Shown here piece by piece: positions 2,363 to 18,082 of a DNA stretch of 63,938 nt. The notes beneath the pieces are model-generated. The model ran no database searches and was not told the DNA's origin. It saw only the letters and a program-made list of their open reading frames with translations. The DNA is taken from IMG/VR virus record IMGVR_UViG_3300023174_000167, positions 1 through 63,938 of that record. One strand, given 5' to 3'. The DNA comes from a virus. A program made the translations under genes and the position numbers. Every line of letters starts with the position of its first letter. Within the stretch, counting starts at the first letter, position 1.

Positions 2363-2368
2363 CTCTCC

Positions 2369-5761: not shown

Positions 5762-5792
5762 GGTGTATCCTTTGGTTAGTAGGTATATATTA

Positions 5793-5821
5793 ATTTTACA
5801 CGGTTTCGGGAAAAATAGCAA
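5793..5821 (-). promoter_or_regulatory. Promoter of operon 5761-1876
   Basis: TTGCTA (5816-5821), 17 bases, TAAAAT (5793-5798). Predicted leader about 25 bases with AAAGGA. It lies downstream of the tRNA, with a GC island (CCCCCGGCCCCGCC) at 5865-5878 between them. Confidence 0.55.
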
Positions 5822-5880
5822 GTCCTCTTAATAAGGTTTTTATGATTAATAGAATAATTAAAACCCCCGGCCCCGCCTTG

Positions 5881-5954
5881 CGATCCGTACGAGACTTGAA
5901 CTCGTGACCTCTACCGTGACAGGGTAGCGCTCTAACCAACTGAGCTAACGGACC
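5881..5954 (-). tRNA. tRNA-Asp (GTC)
   Basis: Complete cloverleaf on the minus strand: acceptor GGTCCGT/ACGGATC (one G-T pair), D stem GCTC/GAGC, anticodon stem CTACC/GGTAG with loop CTGTCAC giving anticodon GTC, T arm ACGAG/CTCGT with loop TTCAAGT, discriminator G73 as in Asp tRNAs. CCA is not encoded. It lies between the DUF932 gene and the next early operon. Confidence 0.95.
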
Positions 5955-5960
5955 AAGTGG

Positions 5961-5986
5961 TGAGCAGTTTTGATTCATGCTCAGGA
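5961..5986 (-). other. Covarying 23-nt hairpin, copy 1
   Basis: In the minus-strand transcript: CCT, then stem TGAGCA/TGCTCA around the 11-base loop TGAATCAAAAC. It lies 17 bases after the DUF932 stop and 6 bases before the tRNA 5' end. Same element as at 7831, 7202, 7287 and 11356. Confidence 0.65.
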
Positions 5987-6002
5987 ATTTTCTTTTGTTT
6001 GC

Positions 6003-7019: not shown

Positions 7020-7052
7020 GAGTTTTTCCTTTTCTGTTTTGTTGTTAATCTA

Positions 7053-7138
7053 ATCATACACCCATCTAGCCAAAAAAGTCAAATAGGCTACGTAAACATG
7101 GGGCAAATCGGACATTTTTTCAGGTGATCTTAAACACA
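7053..7138 (-). promoter_or_regulatory. Control region of DUF932: CRP-like site, TGTCCG box, promoter
   Basis: -10 TATGAT (7053-7058), 18 bases, -35 TTGACT (7077-7082); TGTCCG box at 7109-7114; CRP-like palindrome GGTGATCTTAAACACA (7123-7138 as read on plus). The palindrome centre is at about -84.5 from the predicted start site. Confidence 0.65.
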
Positions 7139-7201
7139 CATCTTAAACTTGACAAGCATGGTAGGATGTGCCCGGCCCCCAAAACCTGCGGGAATTAAAA
7201 G

Positions 7202-7309
7202 TGATCAGTTTCAGTTCATGATCAGGAACTCTCACTACCATGTATATGGAACCAATATCCATGTGTATGGTTCTTGTGAAACTTGTTGAGCAGTTTTGCG
7301 ACTTACTCA
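7202..7309 (-). other. Covarying 23-nt hairpins, copies 2 and 3
   Basis: Minus-strand reading: at 7287-7309 stem TGAGTA/TGCTCA (one U-G pair) with loop AGTCGCAAAAC; at 7202-7224 stem TGATCA/TGATCA with loop TGAACTGAAAC. Both are preceded by CCT. Between them lies a looser GAACCA/TGGTTC repeat with two CCATGTRTATGG units (7238, 7259). This follows the stop of 7353-7772. Confidence 0.6.
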
Positions 7310-7352
7310 GGTCGTTAGGGTTCAGGACTTTAAGTTGCCCCCCTAAGTTTAG

Positions 7353-7772
7353 TTAGAGATACTGTGCGATTTGTCGCATAGTTGAGGCATTTACTGTTTC
7401 CTCATCTGTCATCTTTAAGATGTTGAGGGCATTTTTGATTTCCTCTTTCATAGTGCGATATTCGTGGTTATGTAGAACCTCAAAATCACGCTCTGGCTCT
7501 GTTGGCAGTTCTTTTTCATTGGCTACTACAATATCATAGTCAATGTTTAATTTGTTATTGTATGCACGATATGAGGTACGGAAGTTTTCAGCCTTCTTGA
7601 TATTTGCAATAGCAAAATCCTGAAGTGCCTTGTTGTACTTTTCTCTTGCCTTATCATACTTTGCTTCGTTGGCTTCTTGGCTTGACCAATCTTTTTCTAG
7701 TTTTTCTAGACGGGCTTCTAGTGCCTTGATTACCTTTGGTGTTGCTACTTTTACTGTAATTGCTCTTGACAT
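7353..7772 (-). CDS. Coiled-coil early protein
   Basis: 139 residues. N-terminal MSRAITVKVAT strand, then a long charged helix (KVIKALEARLEKLEKDW ... KYDKAREKYNKALQDFA) likely to form a coiled coil, and a helical end. A pattern I know from actinobacteriophage hypothetical proteins. Transcribed alone from the promoter at 7803. Confidence 0.8.
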   Translation of the reverse strand: MSRAITVKVATPKVIKALEARLEKLEKDWSSQEANEAKYDKAREKYNKALQDFAIANIKKAENFRTSYRAYNNKLNIDYDIVVANEKELPTEPERDFEVLHNHEYRTMKEEIKNALNILKMTDEETVNASTMRQIAQYL

Positions 7773-7802
7773 ATATTTCCTTTTCTTTGATGGTTTATTT
7801 AT

Positions 7803-7824
7803 ATTGTAGTGGTTGGGTCTGACA
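7803..7824 (-). promoter_or_regulatory. TGTC-type promoter of 7353-7772
   Basis: TGTCAG (7819-7824), exactly 10 bases, TACAAT (7803-7808); no standard -35. Same arrangement as at 9468, 11229, 13273, 13959 and 17651. Confidence 0.55.
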
Positions 7825-7830
7825 TTTAAG

Positions 7831-7853
7831 TGAGCAGTTTTATATCATGCTCA
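7831..7853 (-). other. Covarying 23-nt hairpin, copy 4
   Basis: Minus-strand stem TGAGCA/TGCTCA, loop TGATATAAAAC, preceded by TCCT. It begins 18 bases after the stop of 7872-8033. Confidence 0.65.
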
Positions 7854-7871
7854 GGATATTTTATTAGGCTA

Positions 7872-8033
7872 TTATGCCTTCCAAGTTGTCCAGCGTGTGT
7901 TGCCATTTACATCTAACTTAACACGAACTGTGTTCTTGTCTGTTGGCTTGATTTCCAAGATTTGACCTGTGACCTTTGACTTCTGTGTTGTAAAGAGATC
8001 GCCGACCTTGTATGTTGCTGTTGCTACTGTCAT
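7872..8033 (-). CDS. Small KOW-like beta protein
   Basis: 53 residues from the ATG at 8033 after AAAAGGA. YKVGDLFTTQKSKVTGQILEI ... VRVKLDVNG reads as a small beta barrel of the KOW/SH3 type (inference). Known to me as a hypothetical protein of actinobacteriophages. The frame extends upstream to 8159 but through the promoter, so the long form is rejected. Confidence 0.75.
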   Translation of the reverse strand: MTVATATYKVGDLFTTQKSKVTGQILEIKPTDKNTVRVKLDVNGNTRWTTWKA

Positions 8034-8075
8034 TTTTTTTCCTTTTCTATTAGGTGTTGTTTTCTTTATATTTCT

Positions 8076-8160
8076 AGTATATCTGAGATTTCCCAGAAAT
8101 ACAATTCCATTTCCTAAAAATCTCACTATTTGAGACATTTTCCTTGTGATATAGGTCACT
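8076..8160 (-). promoter_or_regulatory. Control region of 7872-8033
   Basis: TTGTAT (8099-8104), 17 bases, TATACT (8076-8081); TGTCTC box at 8132-8137; CRP-like site TGTGATATAGGTCACT at 8145-8160, centre about -83.5. Confidence 0.65.
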
Positions 8161-8232
8161 CATGCCCCAGCCCTGAGATTATGAACACGAGCAGGATTAT
8201 AGTTAGTATAGTTAGTGATAGCATTATTCCCC

Positions 8233-8955
8233 CTACTTTTTGGTTGCACTAAATACTATATCAGACTTCTCATAAATACACAACTTGCAGGTAGCGCAGG
8301 CAGACCCATTGCTTGAGATAAGTGGGATAGCCTTTTTATTCTCAGGACACTTAGCCCCTACCTTACCTGTTAATTCTTTCATGTCTGCTTGCCCTATAGC
8401 AAAATTTTTGGCAAGGTATGCAAGGGATATCCCATGTTCATTCTTAAGGTTAATCCCAATAGACTTATTCTCGCTATCTGTAGAATAGTATAGTGAGAGA
8501 TTAGGGATATCCTTTAGGATTACCGCTGCAGACTTGACTCTGGTATATACCCAGAATTGAATGGTAGGATTGTTTTTGATTACTTGCTTCCAAGCATGAG
8601 CATATTGATCGCTAAAAAAATCTCCGTCCCAGTGAATGCGGAATAGTAAAGGTGCTTCCTTCTTCTCGCAATCTTCAACAAACTCATCTATCATTTCAGA
8701 CAATAGCATGAGCATGGTTAGACCGTCTGCATTGCGTAGTAATTCCCAGTTATGGAGTAAATTCTTTTTTACTGTTGGGAATATCTTTTCCAATTTGCCA
8801 GCGTAGCAAACAGTTTCGCAGATAGACGTAGCGCCAGGGCATGAATAGGCTTTTCCTGCAGGTAGTCCGAATGTGTTGGCGATACTTGCTTGTTTTCCAT
8901 TAGGTGTGACGGCATTAGTTACTTTCCGATCTTTGCTTCTGAGTAATTTAGTCAT
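8233..8955 (-). CDS. GP88-family phage protein
   Basis: 240 residues of the Gene product 88 pattern: GKAYSCPGATSICETVCYAGKLE (residues about 34-56), LLFRIHWDGDFFSDQYAHAW, FWVYTRVKSA, LSLYYSTD and a C-terminal CATCKLC. The two Cys clusters suggest a metal or iron-sulphur site, and the WDGDFF block looks like an active-site region. Function is not known to me. Second gene after the basic protein 8962-9102. Confidence 0.85.
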   Translation of the reverse strand: MTKLLRSKDRKVTNAVTPNGKQASIANTFGLPAGKAYSCPGATSICETVCYAGKLEKIFPTVKKNLLHNWELLRNADGLTMLMLLSEMIDEFVEDCEKKEAPLLFRIHWDGDFFSDQYAHAWKQVIKNNPTIQFWVYTRVKSAAVILKDIPNLSLYYSTDSENKSIGINLKNEHGISLAYLAKNFAIGQADMKELTGKVGAKCPENKKAIPLISSNGSACATCKLCIYEKSDIVFSATKK

Positions 8956-8961
8956 GGTGGT

Positions 8962-9102
8962 TTACTCGCTTTCTTTCTTTAATTGTAGCAGCAGGGACTG
9001 ACTTTTCTTTCTGTTGTATTTCTTTTTGCTAGGCACCGATGAGGCAGCATTACTTCGGCGCAGCTCTAAGAGTCGCCTTAATTCCTCTGGTGTTTTTTTC
9101 AT
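8962..9102 (-). CDS. Very basic small protein
   Basis: 46 residues: MKKTPEELRRLLELRRSN then KKKYNRKKSQ. The charge suggests nucleic-acid binding. It sits 6 bases upstream of the GP88 gene. The ATG follows the promoter at 9113 by a few bases and has no clear Shine-Dalgarno, so it may be nearly leaderless. Confidence 0.6.
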   Translation of the reverse strand: MKKTPEELRRLLELRRSNAASSVPSKKKYNRKKSQSLLLQLKKESE

Positions 9103-9112
9103 ATAATAATCT

Positions 9113-9164
9113 TAGCAAACTTTGGGCAAAAATACAACTCATCTTAATTAGTACAATTCGGACA
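9113..9164 (-). promoter_or_regulatory. Promoter of 9102-8233 with TGTCCG box
   Basis: TTGTAT (9132-9137), 17 bases ending TGC, TAAGAT (about 9109-9114), TGTCCG at 9159-9164. Hexamers and spacing match the promoter at 14185-14213. No CRP-like site is visible here. Confidence 0.55.
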
Positions 9165-9179
9165 ATTTGCCCGGCCTTG

Positions 9180-9278
9180 CTAATCAGTATTAAACATTTT
9201 TAACAACTCATCAATTTGTTCATTAGTTAAATGATCAAGTTGAATTGCTTTTTCAAAACCAAATAAATCTTTTTCCAT
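9180..9278 (-). CDS. Small helical protein
   Basis: 32 residues from the ATG at 9278, starting right after the stop of 9280-9438: MEKDLFGFEKAIQLDHLTNEQIDELLKM. Probably one or two helices. A longer upstream frame overlaps the Cys-rich gene and is rejected. The GC island GCCCGGCC follows its stop. Confidence 0.55.
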   Translation of the reverse strand: MEKDLFGFEKAIQLDHLTNEQIDELLKMFNTD

Positions 9279-9279
9279 T

Positions 9280-9438
9280 TTACAAATCTCCCATCTCAGC
9301 ATCAGCCATGCGTGACCACATATAAAATTCAACGGGATCATGATTAGAATAAAAAACGGGATCAGCAGATGAATATCCTTTAGCACAAATAGTGCAGATA
9401 GAATAGTTAGTGCAGTAGCAGGAGTTAATATCGTTCAT
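9280..9438 (-). CDS. Cys-rich small protein
   Basis: 52 residues with CYC, CTIC and later Met/Trp-rich FYMWSRMADAEM. The Cys cluster CYC-x5-CTIC at residues 7-18 may bind zinc. First gene of the short operon 9438-9180 behind a CRP-like control region. Confidence 0.65.
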   Translation of the reverse strand: MNDINSCYCTNYSICTICAKGYSSADPVFYSNHDPVEFYMWSRMADAEMGDL

Positions 9439-9467
9439 TAGACGACCTTTCGTTTTGGATTATTCTA

Positions 9468-9543
9468 ATCCTAGCAGACTCAACTGACAAATGCAAGATT
9501 TGGGGGGGTTTTAATAGGGTACGTAATTGTGATCTTAGTCACA
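9468..9543 (-). promoter_or_regulatory. Control region of 9438-9180
   Basis: TGC-TAGGAT (-10 at 9468-9473), TGTCAG exactly 10 bases upstream (9484-9489), possible -35 TTGCAT at 17 bases. CRP-like site TGTGATCTTAGTCACA at 9528-9543, centre about -74.5. The repeat GGATTA-GAA-TAATCC overlaps the -10. Confidence 0.65.
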
Positions 9544-9562
9544 CAGCCCGGCCCCGCTCCAG

Positions 9563-9802
9563 CTATTCTGTTTCTATATAAACATATAGATCAACATATG
9601 TATCGTGACTTATTGTTGCTACGTCCCGCTCACCATATGCATCGGCATATTCAATAAAATAGTTATCGCCTGTCGCATCAGAGTCAATAGATATTACCTG
9701 AATGATATCTCCATCATATCCAATTAAATCATCAACCATTAAAGAACCAGGTGTTAACTTATCTGCCCAAACTAGATCCATGCTGTTTATTGTAGCAGTC
9801 AT
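9563..9802 (-). CDS. Small beta-rich early protein
   Basis: 79 residues: LTPGSLMVDDLIGYDGDIIQVISIDSD ... YFIEYADAYGERDVATISHD. This pattern (a value or valve-like beta barrel) is frequent in actinobacteriophages; no function assigned. Last gene of the 11197-9563 chain, overlapping the previous gene by 4 bases. Confidence 0.75.
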   Translation of the reverse strand: MTATINSMDLVWADKLTPGSLMVDDLIGYDGDIIQVISIDSDATGDNYFIEYADAYGERDVATISHDTYVDLYVYIETE

Positions 9803-9927
9803 TTTATAGCCTCCACAATTACATCATCATAGCCCATTTCAATCCATTCCTGCGCCCAGTACTCTGCATCTCGTCTAGTTAGATAGTTAGAATTAATTTC
9901 ACTACCGCCAACCCAAAGTGTATACAT
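9799..9927 (-). CDS. Conserved small early protein
   Basis: 42 residues: MYTLWVGGSEINSNYLTRRDAE, then WAQEWIEMGYDDVIVE. A family I recall from actinobacteriophages (strand-helix-strand). ATG at 9927 in TAATG overlap with 9927-10211; longer in-frame starts lie inside that gene. Confidence 0.75.
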   Translation of the reverse strand: MYTLWVGGSEINSNYLTRRDAEYWAQEWIEMGYDDVIVEAIK

Positions 9928-10211
9928 TAGTACTCTTCCTCTGGAAGCCAGAAAGATAGGTGGTGTTGTTCTACAATAGCCCAAGCAGGTGCAGTAGTTT
10001 TATTTTTATACAATATCTGAAAGTCGCCAACCATAGGCATAGCAATTTCACGATCATAGTCCTCTTCATAGTAAGCGTCAATCGCTTCTATGCAAGGCGT
10101 TACCATTTCTGCGGGGACAGGTGGATAGTGATTACCCTTAAGGTGATAAAGTATCTGAGTCTCTAAGTCTAATACTGTTTCCTGTATTCCTAACGCTGTT
10201 ACTGATCCCAT
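9927..10211 (-). CDS. Conserved early protein (NHYPPVP motif)
   Basis: 94 residues with HLKGNHYPPVPAEMV, AIDAYYEEDYD and a C-terminal HHLSFWLPEE. The NHYPPVP...EAI...HHL layout recurs in actinobacteriophage hypothetical proteins. Coupled by TAATG on both sides. Function unknown. Confidence 0.75.
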   Translation of the reverse strand: MGSVTALGIQETVLDLETQILYHLKGNHYPPVPAEMVTPCIEAIDAYYEEDYDREIAMPMVGDFQILYKNKTTAPAWAIVEQHHLSFWLPEEEY

Positions 10212-10333
10212 TACATTTTCCCTTCAATAAAGTCTAGTATTTCATTATAGGTGGTAATTTCTTCTTCTTCATCTGCTACTGAGCGCATGTCTATGATTAC
10301 ATCTATTAGATTATTTAGGTAGTGGTAGTTCAT
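10211..10333 (-). CDS. Small acidic protein
   Basis: 40 residues: MNYHYLNNLIDVIIDMRS then ADEEEEITTYNEILDFIEGK. One or two helices. TAATG overlap with the next gene; its start lies inside 10311-10412. No family recognised. Confidence 0.55.
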   Translation of the reverse strand: MNYHYLNNLIDVIIDMRSVADEEEEITTYNEILDFIEGKM

Positions 10334-10412
10334 TGTCCCCGTCCAATCCCATTAGTTCCATTTCTTCAGCGTAGTCTAACGCTTCCGATACTTCGGTATT
10401 TATGAATAGCAT
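10311..10412 (-). CDS. Small acidic protein
   Basis: 33 residues (MLFINTEVSEALDYAEEMELMG), overlapping 10211-10333 by 23 bases in another frame. It bridges the chain without a gap. Function unknown. Confidence 0.5.
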   Translation of the reverse strand: MLFINTEVSEALDYAEEMELMGLDGDNELPLPK

Positions 10413-10553
10413 TTAGTATTCCCCTTCTTCTATGTCTGGAGTCAAGTCTAGTGCAATAACGCACTCTTGGCAAACTGGTCGTTCAAAGCGATAGTCAAAC
10501 TTATCTTCATCTAAGTTTTCTAGGCAGTTCTCACAATAAGTTAATGTATCCAT
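10413..10553 (-). CDS. Zinc-ribbon protein
   Basis: 46 residues with YCENC at residues 6-10 and CQEC at 28-31, a small zinc ribbon, and an acidic tail. TAATG overlap with 10553-10690. Part of the set of tiny zinc proteins in this early region. Confidence 0.65.
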   Translation of the reverse strand: MDTLTYCENCLENLDEDKFDYRFERPVCQECVIALDLTPDIEEGEY

Positions 10554-10690
10554 TACTTAACTTCCCAATCTTCTATTACTCCGTCAATAGCGTCCTGTAT
10601 GTCTGTATTAAACACATCTAACTCATCTGCGTTTAGTTCTCTAATAAAATCATTAGTGGGGTTAGAATACCAAGTGATAGGGTTTTTCAT
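10553..10690 (-). CDS. Small hypothetical protein
   Basis: 45 residues: MKNPITWYSNPTNDFIREL, acidic end. Start in ATGA overlap with the stop of 10687-10896. No recognised motif. Confidence 0.6.
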   Translation of the reverse strand: MKNPITWYSNPTNDFIRELNADELDVFNTDIQDAIDGVIEDWEVK

Positions 10691-10896
10691 TTAACAGCCA
10701 CCTCTCCGTTACGATAGAAAGTCTTAGTGTACATCTTACCAATAGGGTCAGACAAGTTATAGGTAGCGTATTCTTTAGCATCTCCATAGTCCTTGCACAA
10801 TTCCCAAACTCTTACGGCTTCTAGCATATCGCTAAAACGGTAAGTATCGTGTAGTTTTCCGTCATAGGAAATAGTTAGTGAGTAAAAGTATTCCAT
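10687..10896 (-). CDS. Small early protein
   Basis: 69 residues from the ATG at 10896 (TAATG overlap): MEYFYSLTISYDGKLHDTYRFSDMLEAVRVWELC ... YTKTFYRNGEVAVK. A beta-helix-beta pattern. Its first half weakly resembles the product of 14571-14714. Function unknown. Confidence 0.7.
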   Translation of the reverse strand: MEYFYSLTISYDGKLHDTYRFSDMLEAVRVWELCKDYGDAKEYATYNLSDPIGKMYTKTFYRNGEVAVK

Positions 10897-11036
10897 TAGT
10901 CGTTCCAATCTAAGGTAAGGTTTAGTTCTGAGTCTAACACATCTGCAAAGTCATGGTCAAGTTGGCAAGACCAGCAACGCAATTCATTTACATCTACTTC
11001 ATTTTCGTTACAATCTAAGCAAGTATAAATATCCAT
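10896..11036 (-). CDS. Zinc-ribbon protein
   Basis: 46 residues with CLDC at 6-9 and CWSC at 20-23, then a helical acidic part (LDHDFADVLDSELNL). The upstream in-frame extension overlaps the next gene and is rejected. TAATG overlaps at both ends. Confidence 0.65.
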   Translation of the reverse strand: MDIYTCLDCNENEVDVNELRCWSCQLDHDFADVLDSELNLTLDWND

Positions 11037-11197
11037 TAGTAGTTTTCCCCCATATTCTTTTCTGCTTCCCACTCTTGACGGTGTTCTGCACACATAGTCG
11101 CAGGGCGAGATGATATTAAGTCTATCCCATATTCCTGAGCATAGCAAATATTGCAAGCCAGCCCTTGATCTGCAAGTACTTCCATTAAATTACCCAT
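11036..11197 (-). CDS. Zinc-binding small protein (CxxC...CxEH)
   Basis: 53 residues from the ATG at 11197 (or 49 from 11185): CNIC, then CAEH. Layout matches the gene at 741-908. A six-codon ORF (ATG at 11208) directly after AGAAAGGA may act as coupling leader for the 11185 start. First gene of the chain 11197-9563. Confidence 0.65.
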   Translation of the reverse strand: MGNLMEVLADQGLACNICYAQEYGIDLISSRPATMCAEHRQEWEAEKNMGENY

Positions 11198-11228
11198 TTA
11201 GGCATTTCCTTTCTGATTAACTAAGTTA

Positions 11229-11295
11229 ATCCTATCGTACTCCACCGACATTTTTGGGATCTTGGGGGGGGTTTTGCGGTGTGATCTTAACCACA
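11229..11295 (-). promoter_or_regulatory. Control region of chain 11197-9563
   Basis: TAGGAT (11229-11234), 10 bases, TGTCGG (11245-11250); CRP-like site TGTGATCTTAACCACA at 11280-11295, centre about -65.5. The repeat GATTAAC-TTA-GTTAATC (11215-11231) overlaps the -10 and the predicted start site. Confidence 0.65.
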
Positions 11296-11305
11296 CTTAA
11301 TAGCC

Positions 11306-11325
11306 TGTGGATAACCTGTGGACGA
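11306..11325. promoter_or_regulatory. DnaA-box-like pair
   Basis: TGTGGATAA (11306-11314), the complement of the DnaA box TTATCCACA, followed by the imperfect TGTGGACGA (11317-11325). Same 11-base spacing as the perfect pair at 13421-13440. CGACACGCCC overlaps the second box (11323-11332). Confidence 0.5.
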
Positions 11326-11355
11326 CACGCCCGGCTCAGCTTTTAGTTGAAACTT

Positions 11356-11378
11356 CAAGCAGTTTTAAAACTTGCTTA
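11356..11378 (-). other. Covarying 23-nt hairpin, copy 5
   Basis: Minus-strand stem TAAGCA/TGCTTG (outer U-G pair), loop AGTTTTAAAAC, preceded by CC. It lies 11 bases after the stop of 11390-11566. Confidence 0.6.
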
Positions 11379-11389
11379 GGTTTTTTTAT

Positions 11390-11566
11390 TTAGTAAGTGC
11401 TTATCATGCAAGCCTCAAAAAATTTATCTGCTTTGAAGTTTACATTATCCTCTGCAAAAAAAGCAGAGAAGTCATCAACTAAATCGTGATAAGTAAATTC
11501 ATCACCGATTAAATCTTTATAAGATGAAAGAATTTCTGCAACTGCTACATAGTCTTTGCGAGTCAT
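11390..11566 (-). CDS. Conserved phage protein (MTRKDY family)
   Basis: 58 residues: MTRKDYVAVAEIL, FTYHDLVDDFSAFFAEDNVNFKADKFFEAC. I recognise this small helical family from many phages of different hosts; its function is unknown. Two successive ATG codons (11569, 11566) follow the stop of 11570-11776; I use the second. Confidence 0.8.
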   Translation of the reverse strand: MTRKDYVAVAEILSSYKDLIGDEFTYHDLVDDFSAFFAEDNVNFKADKFFEACMISTY

Positions 11567-11569
11567 CAT

Positions 11570-11776
11570 TTATTCTGCCACCTTTAGAATTGCATAAGAA
11601 CCGTTTTCGTTAATTACATCTATTGCAGGCTGAATCATCGGCGCAAGCATTTCTTTTAGCATTGATTCAAGCATATCAATTTGATCAATTTCTGAAAGTG
11701 TAAAGAAGCGTTGCGCTACTGGGTGAGTCTCGTCAAACTCAGTTACGAATTTGAGCGTGTGTTCTACTTTTTTCAT
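11570..11776 (-). CDS. Small hypothetical protein
   Basis: 68 residues: MKKVEHTLKFVTEF, RFFTLSEIDQIDMLESMLKEML. Helical, with TAATG overlap to 11776-11958. No recognised family. Confidence 0.65.
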   Translation of the reverse strand: MKKVEHTLKFVTEFDETHPVAQRFFTLSEIDQIDMLESMLKEMLAPMIQPAIDVINENGSYAILKVAE

Positions 11777-11958
11777 TATAGTGTTACCTTTCCACGAAGT
11801 GTGCCTGAAACTCCCAATGAGTCACAGGAAATTTTTACTGATACGCCAACTGGCAGAGTGTTAGGGTAAGTTGAAATAAATTGTGCAACTGCACCCTTTG
11901 ACGGTAGTGAGATTACTTTAACAGTTCCGTTAAAGGTTTCTAGGTTTAATTTATACAT
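11776..11958 (-). CDS. Small beta protein, paralogue of 14718-14891
   Basis: 60 residues: LETFNGTVKVISLPSKGAVAQFISTYP ... VKISCDSLGVSGTLRG. The plus-strand protein at 14718-14891 has the same order (KDINLMSKKEVYDFIKLY ... VKITCDLLGIDGYLQG), so the two are duplicates. Function unknown. Confidence 0.75.
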   Translation of the reverse strand: MYKLNLETFNGTVKVISLPSKGAVAQFISTYPNTLPVGVSVKISCDSLGVSGTLRGKVTL

Positions 11959-11979
11959 AAGTTAGTTTCCTACTTTCTT

Positions 11980-12204
11980 TTAGTTGTTTACTTTTACTGC
12001 TACGGTAGCATAAAAATCTGCTTTAGGTAAATCACCTTTTACAAAATCAGGGCGCACTTTGATAGTGTAAGCCTCATAGTTTTCACCGTACCAAATCTCA
12101 GGGCGAGACTCTGCCCATACGATATTGCCCTCAGTATTACGAGAATCAGAGCGATAGCGTTTTCCGTCAAGCAGATCAACGATAGAGTATTTTTTAGTTG
12201 CCAT
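11980..12204 (-). CDS. Hypothetical early protein
   Basis: 74 residues from the ATG at 12204, about 10 bases after GGAAG: MATKKYSIVDLLDGKRYRSDSR, then ENYEAYTIKVRPDF and a beta-rich end. First gene of the operon 12204-11390, behind the control region 12239-12314. Confidence 0.7.
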   Translation of the reverse strand: MATKKYSIVDLLDGKRYRSDSRNTEGNIVWAESRPEIWYGENYEAYTIKVRPDFVKGDLPKADFYATVAVKVNN

Positions 12205-12238
12205 TAGTAGCACTTCCTTTTCTTTTCTTTATATAACT

Positions 12239-12314
12239 ATTTTACCAAACATACCTGATAAATACAAATCCAAATTCGGACATATCAGACAATTTAAATG
12301 TGAATTGCGTCACA
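12239..12314 (-). promoter_or_regulatory. Control region of operon 12204-11390
   Basis: TTGTAT (12262-12267), 17 bases, TAAAAT (12239-12244). Direct TGTCCG (12277-12282) and TGTCTG (12286-12291). CRP-type palindrome TGTGAATTGCGTCACA at 12299-12314, a perfect TGTGA-N6-TCACA, centre about -74.5. The whole gap 12205-12547 is regulatory; no gene is seen in it. Confidence 0.7.
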
Positions 12315-12378
12315 TCTTTTTGCTATTTATTTAATTGTATAGTAGCAATACTAGCAAACATAAACCAAAAAGTCAACA

Positions 12379-12434
12379 CGACACGCCGTAAATCAGGGGA
12401 ATTTTTTATGTGATCTTAACCACACGACACGCCC
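12379..12434. promoter_or_regulatory. Second CRP-like site flanked by CGACACGCC boxes
   Basis: TGTGATCTTAACCACA at 12409-12424, identical to the site at 11280. CGACACGCCG lies at 12379-12388 and CGACACGCCC at 12425-12434. It is 95 bases upstream of the site 12299-12314. Confidence 0.55.
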
Positions 12435-12500
12435 GACAGCGCCGGGCCGCCTTTCACTCTTTTGAAAATAAATAAATAGAAAATAAAAAACTAATTAGTG

Positions 12501-12526
12501 AAAAAAATAAAAGTGCATTACCACTT
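12501..12526 (-). terminator. Intrinsic terminator after 12548-12748
   Basis: Minus strand: AAGTG-GTAATG-CACTT hairpin (12511-12526) followed by a U-rich run (complement of 12501-12510). It lies 22 bases past the stop codon. Confidence 0.65.
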
Positions 12527-12547
12527 ACAAAAAAAGTTTGATAAAAG

Positions 12548-12748
12548 TTATTCATTCTCATCCTCCATTTTCATTAGACCATCTTCATAGTCCAGCAACC
12601 CTTGCTGATACATTACGGGATCGCAATTAAAAAGAATTTCTGAAGCGGTAAAAGTAGAGTAACCAATTTTAACGCTAGGGTAACACTCATCAAGTAGAGC
12701 GTCATAGCCTTCCTTCATTTCTATTTCTTTTTCTAATTCTGTTTTCAT
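12548..12748 (-). CDS. Conserved early protein (ELEKEIEM family)
   Basis: 66 residues: MKTELEKEIEMKEGYDALLDECY, VKIGYSTFTASEIL, DPVMYQQGLLDY. A small acidic protein I recall from actinobacteriophages of several clusters. Function unknown. Last gene of the operon 13220-12548, followed by a terminator. Confidence 0.8.
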   Translation of the reverse strand: MKTELEKEIEMKEGYDALLDECYPSVKIGYSTFTASEILFNCDPVMYQQGLLDYEDGLMKMEDENE

Positions 12749-12906
12749 TAGTTAGTTTCCTTTTCCTGAAAAATTTTATAGATTTCATTTTGTTTTTTAT
12801 CTGAGAGATTAGCCCAGATGTAGCCTAGCAAATAGTGTGAGCCAGTAATTTCGTTATTACCTTTTACATTATTTGATAGTGCAACTAGTTTTGATAGATC
12901 AGCCAT
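12748..12906 (-). CDS. Small hypothetical protein
   Basis: 52 residues: MADLSKLVALSNNVKGNNEITGSHYLLGYIWANLSDKKQNEIY. The second half is helical. TAATG overlaps at both ends. It resembles small proteins adjacent to the ELEKEIEM family in other phages only by position. Confidence 0.65.
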   Translation of the reverse strand: MADLSKLVALSNNVKGNNEITGSHYLLGYIWANLSDKKQNEIYKIFQEKETN

Positions 12907-13061
12907 TATTTAAACTCCTTTTTTAGTTTTTTTGCAACGATAGCATCTGGAGCGCAATACAATTTGCATTGGCAATTCTTTACTCCATTACGATTATTTA
13001 ACATTAAGTGGCGATTATATTGCTGAATATAACCTAAGTTATGAGTAAGCATATTAGTCAT
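12906..13061 (-). CDS. Small Cys-rich protein, paralogue of 13469-13615
   Basis: 51 residues: MTNMLTHNLGYIQQYNRHLM, then CQCKLYCAPDA and a lysine-rich tail. Nearly the same protein is encoded 0.5 kb away (13469-13615), a clear recent duplication. Cys pattern CxC-x3-C. Role unknown. Confidence 0.7.
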   Translation of the reverse strand: MTNMLTHNLGYIQQYNRHLMLNNRNGVKNCQCKLYCAPDAIVAKKLKKEFK

Positions 13062-13220
13062 TTATTTAACCTCTACTTCTAGGATAGTCCAACCGCTAGT
13101 AACGGCTGAGTCTAGCATATCATTTATTGCTAACTCACTTTTCATTGGAACTTTAGTAGTGATAGTCTCTACATTTCCGTAGCGACCAATTCTAGTCATT
13201 TTATATTTTAGTGAAAACAT
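13062..13220 (-). CDS. Small protein, paralogue of 14267-14452
   Basis: 52 residues from the ATG at 13220, after AGAAAGGAAAAC. Y-basic-G start, then SELAINDMLDSAVTSGWTILEVEVK; compare SEKAANDYLDEMVSKGWIVLEASIK in the plus-strand gene 14267-14452. Fold probably alpha/beta, function unknown. Heads the operon 13220-12548. Confidence 0.7.
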   Translation of the reverse strand: MFSLKYKMTRIGRYGNVETITTKVPMKSELAINDMLDSAVTSGWTILEVEVK

Positions 13221-13237
13221 TTTGTTTTCCTTTCTTT

Positions 13238-13350
13238 GTTGATAACCTTTATCAACTTTCCTTATACTAGAAAGTATAACAGGGGGGTACGACATCTTGA
13301 GGGGTATAAAACGGTCAATTCGGACATTTGGTACTGTGATCTAGCCCACA
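13238..13350 (-). promoter_or_regulatory. Control region of operon 13220-12548
   Basis: TGT-TATACT (-10 at 13273-13278), 10 bases, TGTCGT (13289-13294); second box TGTCCG at 13321-13326; CRP-like site TGTGATCTAGCCCACA at 13335-13350, centre about -76.5. The leader forms the hairpin GTTGATA/TATCAAC (13238-13256). TTATACT/AGTATAA repeats cover the -10. Confidence 0.65.
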
Positions 13351-13406
13351 TTTTTTAGAATAGGGGAATTAAGGCTCTGAGCAGGGCTTTTGTAGAGGGG
13401 GGTAAA

Positions 13407-13440
13407 TGTGATACGTATCATGTGGATAACCTGTGGATAA
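13407..13440. promoter_or_regulatory. Palindrome and two perfect DnaA boxes
   Basis: TGATACGTATCA (13409-13420) is a perfect palindrome, part of TGTGATACGTATCATG. It is followed by TGTGGATAA (13421-13429) and TGTGGATAA (13432-13440), each the complement of TTATCCACA. Candidate origin or DnaA-titration site. Confidence 0.6.
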
Positions 13441-13446
13441 ACCCGG

Positions 13447-13478
13447 AAAAAGTTAGTTGAAAGATCAACTACTTTTTT
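13447..13478. terminator. Bidirectional hairpin terminator at the end of 13469-13615
   Basis: AGTTGA/TCAACT stem (13455-13470) with an AAGA loop; T-rich runs lie on both sides (CTTTTTC on minus, ACTTTTTTATTTT on plus). The TAG of 13469-13615 is inside the stem. Confidence 0.6.
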
Positions 13479-13615
13479 ATTTTATCTATATATTTTGCAT
13501 CACTTGCACAATACAACTTGCATTGGCAATTAGTTAAACCGATACGGTTATTCCATAAGATATGGCGGTTATACTGTTGTATATAGCCTAAGTTATCAGT
13601 GAGTATGTTAGTCAT
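13469..13615 (-). CDS. Small Cys-rich protein, paralogue of 12906-13061
   Basis: 48 residues: MTNILTDNLGYIQQYNRH, then CQCKLYCASDA. Shares nearly all N-terminal and Cys-region residues with 12906-13061; only the tails differ. AAAGGA precedes the ATG. Second gene after the zinc ribbon 13631-13753. Confidence 0.7.
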   Translation of the reverse strand: MTNILTDNLGYIQQYNRHILWNNRIGLTNCQCKLYCASDAKYIDKIKK

Positions 13616-13630
13616 TTATTATCCTTTCTA

Positions 13631-13753
13631 TTACTTACACATTACGCAGATATCGCCTGCGATTAAACCTTGTTTGCAGATATCGCAAGGCTTGTAGCCC
13701 ATTAACTCTGCAAAGACTTTGCTTATTTCTTGTTCAAATATTCTGTTTGTCAT
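13631..13753 (-). CDS. Zinc-ribbon protein, paralogue of 14030-14152
   Basis: 40 residues: MTNRIFEQEISKVFAE, then CDIC and CVMCK at the very end. The plus-strand gene 14030-14152 encodes the same design (MTNRIYEQEVSPVFAE, CEKC, CVMCK). Two zinc ligand pairs. Heads the minus operon 13753-13469. Confidence 0.75.
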   Translation of the reverse strand: MTNRIFEQEISKVFAELMGYKPCDICKQGLIAGDICVMCK

Positions 13754-13771
13754 TTTATTAACCTTTCTAGT

Positions 13772-13869
13772 TTAAGGACTTTCCTTAACTTTCTAATACT
13801 GTAAGGATACATGACCAAGCCCCAAAAGTCAAGCCCAAACACGGCGTGTCTAGTGTGATTTACCCCACA
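13772..13869 (-). promoter_or_regulatory. Control region of operon 13753-13469
   Basis: TTGACT (13827-13832), 17 bases, TATCCT (13804-13809). CRP-like site TGTGATTTACCCCACA (13854-13869), centre about -64.5. Leader hairpin TTAAGGA/TCCTTAA at 13772-13788. GACACGCC box on minus at 13842-13850. Confidence 0.65.
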
Positions 13870-13958
13870 TGGCCCGGGTGCTCTCAGGAAACTCTCAGGA
13901 TAGATGTGGCAAGGATCACAAAAATAAATTCCGACACGCCCGAGAATAGGGGTCAAAA

Positions 13959-14011
13959 TGTCAGTGGGGGGTGTTATACTTTCCATATAGAAAGTTAGAG
14001 AAGGTCTCTAA
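13959..14011 (+). promoter_or_regulatory. TGTC-type promoter and leader hairpin of 14030-14152
   Basis: TGTCAG (13959-13964), exactly 10 bases, extended TGT-TATACT (-10 at 13975-13980). Leader hairpin TTAGAGA-AGG-TCTCTAA at 13995-14011. CGACACGCCC at 13932-13941. Confidence 0.6.
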
Positions 14012-14029
14012 ATAAGAAAGGGTCAAAAA

Positions 14030-14152
14030 ATGACTAACAGAATATACGAACAAGAAGTCTCTCCAGTATTTGCAGAGCATATGGGATATGTCTCATGTGA
14101 GAAGTGTGGGGGATACCCTATCGCTTCTAGCCCATGCGTTATGTGTAAGTGA
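14030..14152 (+). CDS. Zinc-ribbon protein, paralogue of 13631-13753
   Basis: 40 residues with CEKC and a terminal CVMCK; AGAAAGG lies 11 bases before the ATG. Its divergent twin on the minus strand differs mainly between the two Cys pairs. First gene of the plus-strand early module. Its stop codon lies within the CRP-like site that controls the genes behind it. Confidence 0.75.
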   Translation: MTNRIYEQEVSPVFAEHMGYVSCEKCGGYPIASSPCVMCK

Positions 14153-14213
14153 TCTAAATCACACACAGCCTACGGCGTGTCGCCTTGTATTTTAGCGGGG
14201 GATCTGCTAAGAT
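14148..14213 (+). promoter_or_regulatory. Control region of 14267-14891
   Basis: CRP-like site AGTGATCTAAATCACA (14148-14163) matches the GlxR consensus TGTGAnnTAnnTCACA at all but the first base; centre about -64.5. TTGTAT (14185-14190), 17 bases, TGC-TAAGAT (14208-14213). CGACACGCCG on minus at 14173-14182. Confidence 0.7.
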
Positions 14214-14266
14214 TACATCTATAAAATTAAATAAGAATTAAAACTACTAAAGAAAGGTGGTCTAAA

Positions 14267-14452
14267 ATGACTACACTAAATAAAACACAATATCAACTAA
14301 CTTGGGCAGGAGAAATGCCTAAGTATAACTACACTTCAGGATCTTTCCTAGGTGGTCTATTCAATTCCGAAAAGGCTGCTAACGATTACCTTGACGAAAT
14401 GGTTTCTAAAGGTTGGATAGTGCTAGAGGCTAGCATTAAGGAGATTAACTAA
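14267..14452 (+). CDS. Small protein, paralogue of 13062-13220
   Basis: 61 residues: LNKTQYQLTWAGEMPK, a Gly/Ser loop, then FNSEKAANDYLDEMVSKGWIVLEASIKE. Strong AAAGGTGG upstream. The C-terminal helix-strand part is shared with 13062-13220. Function unknown. Confidence 0.75.
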   Translation: MTTLNKTQYQLTWAGEMPKYNYTSGSFLGGLFNSEKAANDYLDEMVSKGWIVLEASIKEIN

Positions 14453-14453
14453 G

Positions 14454-14570
14454 ATGATACACCATGAACTTTTTCTATGCGATAACTGCGATACTCTCGC
14501 CATGATAACCTATACAGGTACAACAATTACAGTTAACCAATGTCTATGCGTTTCTAAGGAGAATAACTAA
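14454..14570 (+). CDS. Zinc-binding microprotein
   Basis: 38 residues: CDNC at 9-12 and CLC at 30-32. AAGGAG lies in the end of the previous gene, one base before this ATG's junction. A further member of the tiny Cys-rich set. Confidence 0.65.
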   Translation: MIHHELFLCDNCDTLAMITYTGTTITVNQCLCVSKENN

Positions 14571-14714
14571 ATGACGATACACTACTCAATCTGGCAAGGC
14601 TCATCGCTAATAGGTGTTCGCACCGCTACTAGTGTTAAAGAAATACTAGACACTATGAAAGAACTAAAGCAACTTGGTATGTTCACACACAACATCTTTA
14701 AAATTGAGGGGTAA
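14571..14714 (+). CDS. Small hypothetical protein
   Basis: 47 residues: MTIHYSIWQGSSLIGVRTATSVKEILDTMKELKQLG. Strand-helix pattern; AAGGAG lies 10 bases before the ATG, which abuts the previous stop. Not recognised. Confidence 0.65.
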   Translation: MTIHYSIWQGSSLIGVRTATSVKEILDTMKELKQLGMFTHNIFKIEG

Positions 14715-14717
14715 CAA

Positions 14718-14891
14718 ATGAAAGTAACACTAACATCTATGCAAGGTAACACAAAAGACATTAACCTCATGAGCAAGAAAGAGGTTTATGATTTCATTAA
14801 GTTGTATAAATTAACATTACTAAAAAACCAGAGAGTTAAGATTACTTGTGATCTGCTTGGCATTGACGGATACTTGCAGGGTGTCTCCTAG
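14718..14891 (+). CDS. Small beta protein, paralogue of 11776-11958
   Basis: 57 residues; GAGGGG precedes the ATG. MQGNTKDINLMSKKEVYDFIKLY and VKITCDLLGIDGYLQG align with 11776-11958 throughout. Last gene of the plus-strand early module; the stop codon is in the stem-loop boundary that follows. Confidence 0.75.
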   Translation: MKVTLTSMQGNTKDINLMSKKEVYDFIKLYKLTLLKNQRVKITCDLLGIDGYLQGVS

Positions 14892-14901
14892 AAATAGGAG
14901 A
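14884..14901 (+). terminator. GAAA-tetraloop hairpin ending the plus module
   Basis: TCTCCTA-GAAA-TAGGAGA, a seven-pair stem with a stable loop directly on the stop of 14718-14891. No immediate U-run; a T-rich stretch begins 24 bases later. Confidence 0.5.
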
Positions 14902-15020
14902 TCCCCCTAGATACGTGCACACTATTTTTTATGGTTATTTTATTTTAAATCACGTATCATACATCTGATAAAAATATTCAGATTTTGTGAAAAGTGAATT
15001 TTTATAATTTTTCAGATTTG

Positions 15021-15029
15021 TGCTATACT
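15021..15029 (+). promoter_or_regulatory. Extended -10 promoter of 15046-15780
   Basis: TGC-TATACT, followed by a short leader with AAAGGGG. No clear -35. Confidence 0.55.
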
Positions 15030-15045
15030 GAATTAAAGGGGTATC

Positions 15046-15780
15046 ATGATAAATCAAGGTAAAAATGTTCCAGATAACACAATAGCTGTATTCTGTGAAA
15101 ACCAAAACATTGATAAAGACAGACTATCCAACATAGTCTTAAAACCTAAAAAACAAAGAGCATGGTTTACCCCACACTTCTATAACTGCCTTCCACTAAC
15201 AATTGGCAACCAATATGGTTTTATAATAAAAAGCGAATTTACATTTTCTGCAATTTGGAACGGTGGAGACAATCCTGAAGATACTGTATTTAAATTTGAT
15301 CAAGATGTCTCTGATTTCTATCCAAGAGTAGATAGTCATTTTGGCAAGGGAATAATAACAATAAACCCACCATACATATTCAGAACTCCTCCTGGGGTTA
15401 ACCTTATGACCATAAATCCACCTAATGTAGTTTTACCTAATATAACAGTAATGACAGGTGTTGTAGAGTCTGATCACCTAAGACGTAATTTTACCTTTAA
15501 CCTAAAGATACAGCAACCAAATATAGAAATAGTTTTTCCAGCAGGCATACCAATTGCAGCCTTTATACCTATTCCTAAGAACTTTGGGGATGGTTTTAAT
15601 ATGGTTTGGGCAGATGAAATTTTTGATGAAGAAACGGTACTTGAAGAATTACAAGCAAGTATAGATCATGATATTTATAGAGAACACATAGAGCCAACCC
15701 TACCAAATAACATAGGAAGACTTTACTTTAAAGGTTTAGACGTATATGGAAACAAACTTCCAGATCATCAAAAACCATAA
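15046..15780 (+). CDS. DUF6065-like protein
   Basis: 244 residues. WFTPHFYNCLPLTIGNQYGF, FSAIWNGGD, HFGKGIITINPPYIFRTPPGVNLMTINPPN, GVVESDHLRRNFTFNL and IVFPAGIPIAAFIPIPK follow the order I know from DUF6065, a family of unknown function. The gene at 37989-38675 shows a related pattern. Convergent with 15782-16534, one base apart. Expressed from an extended -10 promoter. Confidence 0.75.
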   Translation: MINQGKNVPDNTIAVFCENQNIDKDRLSNIVLKPKKQRAWFTPHFYNCLPLTIGNQYGFIIKSEFTFSAIWNGGDNPEDTVFKFDQDVSDFYPRVDSHFGKGIITINPPYIFRTPPGVNLMTINPPNVVLPNITVMTGVVESDHLRRNFTFNLKIQQPNIEIVFPAGIPIAAFIPIPKNFGDGFNMVWADEIFDEETVLEELQASIDHDIYREHIEPTLPNNIGRLYFKGLDVYGNKLPDHQKP

Positions 15781-15781
15781 A

Positions 15782-16534
15782 CTACATATTAAGATATTCT
15801 TCTTCGTATACGTTTTTATTAATTTCGTGTAAAACCTTTTCACGTAATCCAACAGACTTAAATCGTTCATATCTAGATTTTAAGGTTTTGCTAAGTTTAA
15901 AGATATCCGAAGTGGCCATACTTGCATGAGAGTATTTTGTCAATAGCTCTGTTTGTCTATATCTTTTTACTATGATTGGTCTATCTGTCTTAAACTCAGC
16001 ATAGAATAGTGGCTCACCTTCAACAAAGTTTATCTTTCCTTTATCTGACCATGCTTGAATCTCAAAACTATACGGTCTATACCAAGATCCTATGTTAAAA
16101 TTTCCAGGAATAGTGGAACAAGACTCCATATATTTTACTTTATGAAAAAATGGGGAAGTAAAAGAAACTTCTAAACTCTCATCAGCAAAGAAACTATATC
16201 CTAATCCAAGCTTAAAGTTTGGTCCAATAGTAAGCATACGATCTCTGGCGTTATACATCATAATTCCATCACTGTCTTTTAATATTAACTCTTTATTATC
16301 ACCAGAATAGTCATAAGAATATTCAAAACTCATAGGGCAATTAAACACTAAGGTTTTTCTAAATTTTGATAAAGAGGCAGGGCATTGAAAGAGATGATTC
16401 TTACTTTCTTTATCTTTATATTGAAAATAATCGCTAAACAAAGTAGTTGGTTTTGGGTATAAAAAAGACCAGTCTGGAGCAGAGTGATCATCTATATAAG
16501 GAGACCAATATACTGTTATAGGATTTTTATTCAT
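15782..16534 (-). CDS. Hypothetical protein of a cyanophage-like family
   Basis: 250 residues: ITVYWSPY, DWSFLYPKPTTLFSDY, FQCPASLSKFRKTLVFNCPMS, then YSFFADESLEVSFTSPFF, SWYRPYSFEIQAW and IVKRYRQTELL. I recall proteins with YW.P / DW..LY.EP / CPA from marine phages, of unknown role. Possibly related to the DUF6065-like neighbours by fold. Last gene of the operon 17325-15782. Confidence 0.6.
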   Translation of the reverse strand: MNKNPITVYWSPYIDDHSAPDWSFLYPKPTTLFSDYFQYKDKESKNHLFQCPASLSKFRKTLVFNCPMSFEYSYDYSGDNKELILKDSDGIMMYNARDRMLTIGPNFKLGLGYSFFADESLEVSFTSPFFHKVKYMESCSTIPGNFNIGSWYRPYSFEIQAWSDKGKINFVEGEPLFYAEFKTDRPIIVKRYRQTELLTKYSHASMATSDIFKLSKTLKSRYERFKSVGLREKVLHEINKNVYEEEYLNM

Positions 16535-16537
16535 GTT

Positions 16538-16732
16538 TCACCATTTCTGTATCGGACATCTAGCATGTTCTAATTCGGTTTTAAGCTTCATAAAGCAACT
16601 ACATTTCTTACAGCGTTTTGTTTTAGAAAAGAACTCACAACCTTGACATATTTTCAAACGGTATTGAGCCAATTCCTCACTGGCTCTGGGCGAAGAAGGA
16701 TTAAGCCAATCACCAATAGTTACATCCTTCAT
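16538..16732 (-). CDS. Zinc-binding small protein
   Basis: 64 residues; ICQGC, CKKCSCFMKLKTEL and a terminal CPIQKW form a rubredoxin-like set of five to six Cys. SASRASEEL-type helix before it. ATGA overlap with 16729-17325. Small phage proteins with this CxxC..CxxCxCFM..K..CP.KW pattern are widespread; role unknown. Confidence 0.7.
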   Translation of the reverse strand: MKDVTIGDWLNPSSPRASEELAQYRLKICQGCEFFSKTKRCKKCSCFMKLKTELEHARCPIQKW

Positions 16733-17325
16733 ACAATCAACTTCTCTGGATCGCCAATAATAGCGGTATCCACAGTAGTCCAGAGTTGATATGACATTGA
16801 CGGACTTATCTTTGCATGAAAACCAGGTTTGTCAATCACGTATTTAAATCCACCCTTCTTAGACTCTTTTACACCCCATGTTCCATTATAGTCCAATTTG
16901 GAGGCTTCAAAGACAAATAAGTAGTAGGTCTTAGGATCAACCTTTTCTGGGATGCTAGACCAGTCTTCTGAGGCTTTTGCAAGGCATATGTAGAAATCTG
17001 CATGAGTATCTCCTATTGCTTCTACCATAGCTTCTATTGTGTCGTGCTTGCCTAATCTACTCCCCGAAAATTTTAGGGTTTTCTTTTTTGGATCATAAAT
17101 ACCCGATTTAATTGAGAATGAGTATCCTTCTTCCAGCGACAAGTCTTTTGATACCGTATGTGAGCGATTTGGCTTCCAGTCATTGGGATAACCATTTTCC
17201 TGCAAGGCTTCGGCTATAAGTTCTTCCAAAAATTCAGAAATCGCAGGTAGACGGTATATCATATGATGAAGCCGTAGCTTGCTCAAAAGAAAAAGCCTGA
17301 GCGTGTCTTTGATCTTTTCTACCAT
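16729..17325 (-). CDS. Hypothetical protein, possibly endonuclease-like, leaderless
   Basis: 198 residues. SFSIKSGIYDPKKKTLKFSGSRL (about residues 71-93) resembles the core SxKSG...SGSR of some type II restriction-enzyme-like proteins, with conserved aromatic YYLFVFEAS later and HAKISPSMSYQLWTT at the end. Acidic partners for a PD-(D/E)xK site are not certain. A consensus promoter lies so close (6 bases) that the mRNA should be leaderless. Confidence 0.5.
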   Translation of the reverse strand: MVEKIKDTLRLFLLSKLRLHHMIYRLPAISEFLEELIAEALQENGYPNDWKPNRSHTVSKDLSLEEGYSFSIKSGIYDPKKKTLKFSGSRLGKHDTIEAMVEAIGDTHADFYICLAKASEDWSSIPEKVDPKTYYLFVFEASKLDYNGTWGVKESKKGGFKYVIDKPGFHAKISPSMSYQLWTTVDTAIIGDPEKLIV

Positions 17326-17331
17326 ACATCA

Positions 17332-17360
17332 ATTCTAGCGCATCAGGCTAAATCTGTCAA
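17332..17360 (-). promoter_or_regulatory. Consensus promoter of operon 17325-15782
   Basis: TTGACA (17355-17360), 17 bases, TAGAAT (17332-17337), then 6 bases to the ATG. The strongest -35 in the window. Confidence 0.7.
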
Positions 17361-17374
17361 ACTATAACGTTTTG

Positions 17375-17611
17375 TTATTCAGATATTGCTGCTTCAACTA
17401 CAGGTTCTTCTTTAGGAATTTCAACATATAAACCAACAAAGAATACTGCAAGGGTTTGTGCTTCCTTTTCAATTCTTCGTCTATTTAATGTTACAGTTGC
17501 TTCAACTTCATCAGCAGGTAACTTTTGTGCCATTGCATTTTCTGCAATATTTTTTAGCATCTGTACTTTAATTTTTTCCAGAATTGTATCTGTATCTACT
17601 TCAAATTTCAT
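17375..17611 (-). CDS. Small hypothetical protein
   Basis: 78 residues from the ATG at 17611, after AAAGGTGG; the longer frame upstream runs into the promoter. MKFEVDTDTILEKIKVQMLKNIAENAMAQ then NRRRIEKEAQTLAVFFVGLYVEI. Helical, acidic ends. Family not recognised. Confidence 0.7.
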   Translation of the reverse strand: MKFEVDTDTILEKIKVQMLKNIAENAMAQKLPADEVEATVTLNRRRIEKEAQTLAVFFVGLYVEIPKEEPVVEAAISE

Positions 17612-17650
17612 ATTTCCACCTTTGATTGTTTTCCCATTTGGGTATACTTC

Positions 17651-17672
17651 ATTATACACCAATACCCCGACA
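17651..17672 (-). promoter_or_regulatory. TGTC-type promoter of 17375-17611
   Basis: TGTCGG (17667-17672), exactly 10 bases, TATAAT (17651-17656). Confidence 0.55.
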
Positions 17673-17785
17673 TAGGGCTTCGTAAGAAGCATGGTTTGTC
17701 GTTATGTGGTTTGATAGCCTCTATTTCGGCGGACTTTTAGGCGGCGACTTATATCGGGCGAACTTTAATTATTTAAGTAGAATGA

Positions 17786-17794
17786 TGATATAAT
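17786..17794 (+). promoter_or_regulatory. Late extended -10 promoter
   Basis: TGA-TATAAT; ATG at 17801 follows after 6 bases (leaderless). Confidence 0.65.
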
Positions 17795-17800
17795 CTAAGC

Positions 17801-18082
17801 ATGACTCAACATTCCCTTACCACGCTTAGCAGTTCTTCTGCTACCCGCTTGACTCCAATCGGACTTCACAGCGGATTAGATATTACTATTCAAAATACTG
17901 ATGGATCTGCTTATGTTTATATTGGTGGAGAAGGAGTTACTACCACTAATTATGGATACCGACTTGCCCCAGGTGCTGCTTGGTCAATTGAGCTTTCAGG
18001 GCATGATGCACTTTATGCTATTACAGACACTAATGGATCAAAAGTAGCAGTTCTCAAGACAAGCCTAGAGTCAGGAAACTAA
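17801..18082 (+). CDS. Virion-associated beta protein, leaderless
   Basis: 93 residues, Ser/Thr-rich and beta in character: GLDITIQNTDGSAYVYIGGEGVTTTNYGYRLAPGAAWSIEL. Resembles small structural proteins placed before fibres in other phages. No charged catalytic residues. First gene of the adhesin region and paired with the collagen-like gene two bases on. Confidence 0.65.
   Translation: MTQHSLTTLSSSSATRLTPIGLHSGLDITIQNTDGSAYVYIGGEGVTTTNYGYRLAPGAAWSIELSGHDALYAITDTNGSKVAVLKTSLESGN

Follow-up and report, generated by a model that had tools for sequence, protein, structure and literature searches.

Genes and Box Promoters of the Window

The DNA analysed here (the window) is a 64-kb IMG/VR virus contig with a GC content of 37%, whose tape measure protein has matches in Streptomyces and Gordonia phages. 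Among the many small genes of its leftward block (1-18 kb) are one for GP88 and one for a DUF932 protein. The latter shares 54% identity with its counterparts in Streptomyces phages including Riptide and Samisti12, and in phages of this type a comparable GP88/DUF932 block sits at the genome end; because of this synteny we call the 1-18 kb region the 'early block', and, by analogy, the block carrying the promoters described below is probably expressed early.

A first-pass annotation of the window had described six promoters in which a TGTC-containing box precedes the -10 hexamer at a constant distance and a good -35 is lacking. All six are present at the positions and on the strands reported, with identical box-to--10 spacing. 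Most do lack a good -35, the promoter at 9468 having TTGCAT with a spacer of 17, and the site at 13273 is a weaker match, departing from the box consensus TGTCRG in its sixth base. Two further box promoters (the first two below) sit at the 3' ends of the genes before them. These sites, designated PafBC-type on grounds set out below, and the DUF932 promoter are:

4575-4596, minus strand: PafBC-type promoter TGTCAGTG-N8-TATAAT, before the gene at 4288-4542
5346-5367, minus strand: PafBC-type promoter TGTCAGTG-N8-TACAAT, the -10 ending 7 bases before the ATG at 5339
7053-7082, minus strand: DUF932 promoter TTGACT-N18-TATGAT, without a box; most relatives have box TGTCRG at the same promoter
7803-7824, minus strand: PafBC-type promoter TGTCAG-N10-TACAAT, before a conserved 139-aa gene (7353-7772)
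9468-9489, minus strand: PafBC-type promoter TGTCAG-N10-TAGGAT, start codon at 9438; TTGCAT at -35 with a spacer of 17
11229-11250, minus strand: PafBC-type promoter TGTCGG-N10-TAGGAT
13273-13294, minus strand: weaker PafBC-type promoter TGTCGT-N10-TATACT, extended -10
13959-13980, plus strand: PafBC-type promoter TGTCAGTG-N8-TATACT, extended -10, divergent
17651-17672, minus strand: PafBC-type promoter TGTCGG-N10-TATAAT, extended -10, upstream of the start at 17611 (ORF 17375-17692)

The pattern TGTC(A/G)(G/T)-N10-TAnnnT occurs 11 times in the window, against a mean of 3.0 and a maximum of 7 in 100 dinucleotide shuffles, none of which reached 11. The narrower TGTC(A/G)G-N10-TAnnnT occurs seven times, always within 1-18000, where 0.27 are expected (maximum 2 in 300 Markov shuffles). 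The gene at 5339 may have a leaderless transcript, given how closely the -10 precedes its ATG, and members of the family of the 4288-4542 gene are preceded in relatives by 22 non-redundant TGTC promoters.

Other sequences also recur. One is TGTCCGA(A/T)TT, of which 3.4 Mb of phage loci contain 472 copies; several promoters, especially that of DUF932, have it upstream. Its copies in the window are at:

7108, 9158, 12276, 13320 and 19715, minus strand: TGTCCGA(A/T)TT
1812 and 25385, plus strand: TGTCCGA(A/T)TT

In TGTCCGAATTGTCCGTTATAAT, at 25385-25406 on the plus strand, TGTCCG likewise stands exactly 10 bases before TATAAT. GCGTGTCG words, often near GGCCGGGC, follow gene ends at 11323, 12379, 12425, 13932 (-) and 14175 (+), and are possibly terminators with a second role; similar TGTCGGGCCCGGACA palindromes occur in Samisti12.

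Fixed Register and Exchange with the -35 in Related Phages

Using the DUF932 protein as query, we collected 80 close contigs, in which TGTC(A/G)G combined with a -10 of the form TA[TC]A[AC]T is found 373 times at N10 and 0-10 times at any other spacing; removal of near duplicates left 386 non-redundant box sites. Box promoters typically number 5-15 per genome and lie in the early-gene block, and across whole contigs almost all good box sites fall inside one block of roughly 10 kb. A viral scan free of lineage bias gave, among the matches listed, many-site loci nearly all from this lineage, and rarer users may exist elsewhere. A sister group around contigs L083 and L406 has few boxes and more TTGAC promoters.

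The first-pass annotation would have been contradicted had the spaced motif not been enriched before genes in related phages. It is enriched there: a Shine-Dalgarno sequence, a start codon and an open frame follow 345 of 410 non-redundant sites, which span about 103 gene families (by a crude family threshold) and mostly have 5' leaders of 15-35 nt. The phage box matrix reads A-W-W-TGTCAG-W-S-S and, further on, TAtAaT, which is preceded by the TGn of an extended -10 at roughly half to two thirds of sites; just 16-24% of box promoters have a -35 with at least 5/6 matches. A reading of the box as part of a divergent promoter (CTGACA as a reverse -35) was rejected, as the matrix contains no conserved reverse -10.

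Comparison of orthologous genes shows what takes the place of the -35. The GP88 promoter has the box in 37 loci, TTGAC in 25 and both in none; that of the 139-aa gene has TGTC in 54, TTGAC in 6 and both in none; that of DUF932 has TGTC in 95, TTGAC in 22 and both in 25, other loci matching neither in each of the three sets. Because box and TTGACA -35 exchange in this way, the box behaves as a -35 substitute.

These data bear on the suggestion, also made in the first-pass annotation, that the box might be an operator. A phage repressor acting on it, as at the stoperators of L5-type mycobacteriophages, would explain the many copies of an asymmetric TGTC-containing site, and a promoter spacer is a usual place for an operator. 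Repression, however, needs no exact 10-bp spacing, the box replaces the -35 rather than accompanying it at two of the orthologous promoter sets, and the dispersed copies of L5-type phages have almost no counterpart here: 1292 of 1855 WTGTCAG words in phage loci are in promoter register, the remainder occurring at about the background rate given by counts of scrambled words, with no clear excess outside the register. We consider an operator very improbable.

Correspondence to RecA-Independent DNA-Damage Promoters

The published consensus of actinobacterial RecA-independent DNA-damage promoters (RecA-NDp, or P1) is quoted in PMC5656591 as tTGTCRgtg-8 nt-TannnT. Since tTGTCRgtg-N8-TAnnnT equals TGTCRG-N10-TAnnnT, the phage class matches these promoters. 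In phage loci, TGTCRGTS-N8-TAnnnT is found 798 times at N8 and 0-29 times at N4-N7 and N9-N12, and the TGTCRG core is enriched in the same register. Sites selected by TGTCRG alone have A or T at position -1 and mostly A at -3 upstream of it, but the published trailing 'gtg' is kept only in part, the phage box often being followed by CC or GG. As in PafBC promoters, the -35 appears dispensable in the phage class, in which good -35s are few and TTGACA can be exchanged for the box.

At RecA-NDp promoters, PafBC is activated by single-stranded DNA (ssDNA), PafB contacting the -26 motif and PafC lying between the DNA and domain 4 of sigma-A (PMC11804915); a second study places the PafB motif at -24 (PMC12340889). 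On this basis we judge, with a probability of about 88%, that the phage box is the -26 element of PafBC, and that the early-block genes are preceded by sigma-A RecA-independent DNA-damage promoters that would be read with the host's PafBC and often its CRP. The first-pass annotation had proposed 'an unusual sigma or activator': the box, its spacing, its position and the missing -35 fit the activator PafBC, whereas an unusual sigma is disfavoured, Sigma70 region 2 being absent from all 16 of the long relatives searched. PafBC itself was not found in the phage sequence searched. A report that ClgR recognises P1 in mycobacteria, cited in PMC5656591, would allow ClgR to read the box in place of PafBC, but the structural work in PMC11804915 and PMC12340889 puts PafB on the -26/-24 motif, and we consider ClgR a very improbable reader.

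The Same Motif in a Candidate Host

A candidate host order was suggested by a single relative, the contig L083 (83% DUF932 identity), which was binned in a metagenome-assembled genome (MAG); the assignment is uncertain, as it depends on one bin and binning can err. We scanned the intergenic DNA of a complete 1.34-Mb genome from this order (G022) with a loose -10 and found TGTCnG-N10-TAnnnT nine times, against 0-2 times at every other spacing. Three of its sites each adjoin a GAAC-N4-GTTC box: one precedes recA, another a DUF6504-dnaE2 operon, and the third lies in the intergenic region of lexA and a LysM gene (gene names read from translations). With the same regulon and the same motif, we identify these sites with the mycobacterial RecA-independent DNA-damage promoter. 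G022 also encodes PafB and PafC, adjoining tatC; PafC matches HTH_PafC (3.6e-24) and WYL, PafB matches WYL and WCX, and both match the PafBC structures 7p5x, 9fnd/9fne and 6sj9.

Stricter -10 patterns, applied to 61, 296 and 396 actinobacterial genomes, gave no clear enrichment of box promoters. Such patterns pass over poor -10s like those of the host PafBC promoters found here; the class had at first seemed phage-specific and absent from the host order, a view overturned by the loose scan of G022. A carD promoter with a box was set aside as conserved in only part of the order. At two further host-order loci, L087 (G036) and L088 (G044), RecA-NDp-like sites are followed by a short leader ORF and by CTACACGCAAGGCCGCCAAACCAGGCC, a conserved stretch.

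The phage class is thus not a new kind of promoter, while its use before phage early genes appears to be new: the literature searched yielded no account of PafBC promoters being used by a phage, which is no proof that none exists. Phage promoters have stronger -10s than the PafBC-type promoters of the candidate host, and some may fire partly without PafBC.

Phage-Encoded Candidates

The box could also be read by a phage-encoded factor that takes over sigma-A in the manner of MotA/AsiA of T4. Promoters with an upstream box, an extended -10 and no -35 resemble the middle promoters of T4, and two candidates, a WhiB protein and a helix-turn-helix (HTH) protein of about 50 aa, are each encoded in 16/16 relatives. 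Both, however, are also present in Streptomyces phage Samisti12, whose early block has no box class, so that neither was retained as the box factor in spite of its universality, and in the candidate host this very motif already serves DNA-damage genes. A MotA/AsiA pair was not seen among the families listed, up to 25 per list, many small phage proteins being without a family. We regard a phage-encoded reader as unlikely, if less so than an operator or ClgR, and favour host PafBC.

The small HTH protein (L157:9990-10157, minus strand, with orthologues in 16 relatives) has weak similarity to sigma region 4; it is a conserved member of the replication block and occurs in Samisti12 too. Two other proteins were considered and rejected: the conserved 139-aa early protein as a box binder, its predicted fold having no informative match, and a 53-aa phage protein as CarD-like, for which there was no profile match. 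Paralogous proteins of 53-56 aa (YKVGDxxTxxKSKVTG; window 7872-8033, minus strand, and L155:13465-13635) occur in nearly all relatives and matched no known family.

CRP-Like Palindromes Upstream of Box Promoters

A CRP-like palindrome, TGTGAtnTanATCACA, is present with a score of at least 9 of 10 upstream of 41% of box promoters; at the same threshold it is found at 15% and 5% (TTGACA-N17) in two -35 classes and at 2% in the control. Preferred palindrome starts, relative to the -10, are -60, -70 and -80, a helical phase of about 10 bp, and the association with the box is seen across 54 gene families. In the window, a phased palindrome accompanies four of the six promoters first described:

9528-9543, minus strand: CRP-like palindrome TGTGACTAAGATCACA, starting 70 bases upstream of the -10 at 9473
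11280-11295, minus strand: CRP-like palindrome TGTGGTTAAGATCACA, starting 61 bases upstream of the -10 at 11234
13335-13350, minus strand: CRP-like palindrome TGTGGGCTAGATCACA, starting 72 bases upstream of the -10 at 13278
13905-13920, plus strand: CRP-like palindrome TGTGGCAAGGATCACA, starting 70 bases upstream of the -10 at 13975

Because these palindromes lie upstream in helical phase, host CRP probably adds activation in those ~41% of cases. The cyclic-nucleotide-binding domain (PF00027) was found in none of 16 phage records, and G022 has a CRP close to that of M. tuberculosis, with a match of 6.5e-77 to M. tuberculosis-type CRP/FNR-family structures. The candidate host order shows no enrichment of perfect TGTGA-N6-TCACA, though a CRP gene is present. 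We infer that CRP for the phage promoters would be supplied by the host, whose assignment is uncertain, and not by the phage.

A Model for Early Expression

In the mechanism that we propose, host PafBC, activated by ssDNA made during infection, would bind the phage box through PafB, while PafC would engage domain 4 of sigma-A ('sigma adaptation'). With PafB on the box and PafC on sigma-A, a -35 would not be needed and the distance from box to -10 would be fixed. At ~41% of box promoters, host CRP would add activation from the phased palindrome upstream. The action of both proteins on phage promoters, and infection ssDNA as the trigger, are inferred. On this reading, the phage may be responding to the alarm that damage raises in its host.

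More tentatively, and with the balance somewhat against it, the early block could be wired to two host sensors, PafBC for ssDNA and CRP for cAMP. The DNA damage or replication state of the infected cell, together with its nutrient state, would then gate early expression, and ssDNA of the phage itself could give positive feedback. Should PafBC drive the early genes, an abundant group of freshwater phages would depend on a regulator of bacterial DNA repair; cells could then become resistant by losing pafBC, and damage could alter infection. These phages also offer hundreds of naturally varied PafBC-type promoters for the study of sigma adaptation, including exchange with the -35 and pairing with CRP.

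Comparison with Known Systems

The phage promoters share with RecA-NDp / P1 promoters of Mycobacterium and other actinobacteria the TGTCRG box, the exact N10 (equivalent to gtg-N8) to TAnnnT and a dispensable -35, and the motif is carried by recA/lexA/dnaE2-type genes of the candidate host. They differ in preceding early-block genes, in their strong and often extended -10s, in the frequent phased CRP site, and in the absence of adjacent LexA boxes (0 of 1686 phage sites). Like class I CRP promoters (the E. coli lac type, and those of actinobacterial GlxR/Crp), they have an upstream TGTGAtnTanATCACA palindrome in ~10-bp phase; unlike them, they carry a PafBC-type box alongside, and their CRP centres lie near -64, -74 and -84, about 2-3 bp off the E. 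coli class I positions.

T4 middle promoters likewise have a box (the MotA box) instead of a -35, at a fixed distance from a good -10, but the phage box has another sequence and lies a few bp nearer the -10, and no MotA-type protein was identified among the families listed. The Stanwilliamsviridae phages of Streptomyces (Samisti12, Riptide) have a similar early block, with GP88-like and DUF932 genes and many small genes with promoters of their own; these promoters, however, combine a TTGAC/CTTGC-type -35 with a TAGACT-like -10, and have neither the TGTC box class nor CRP sites.
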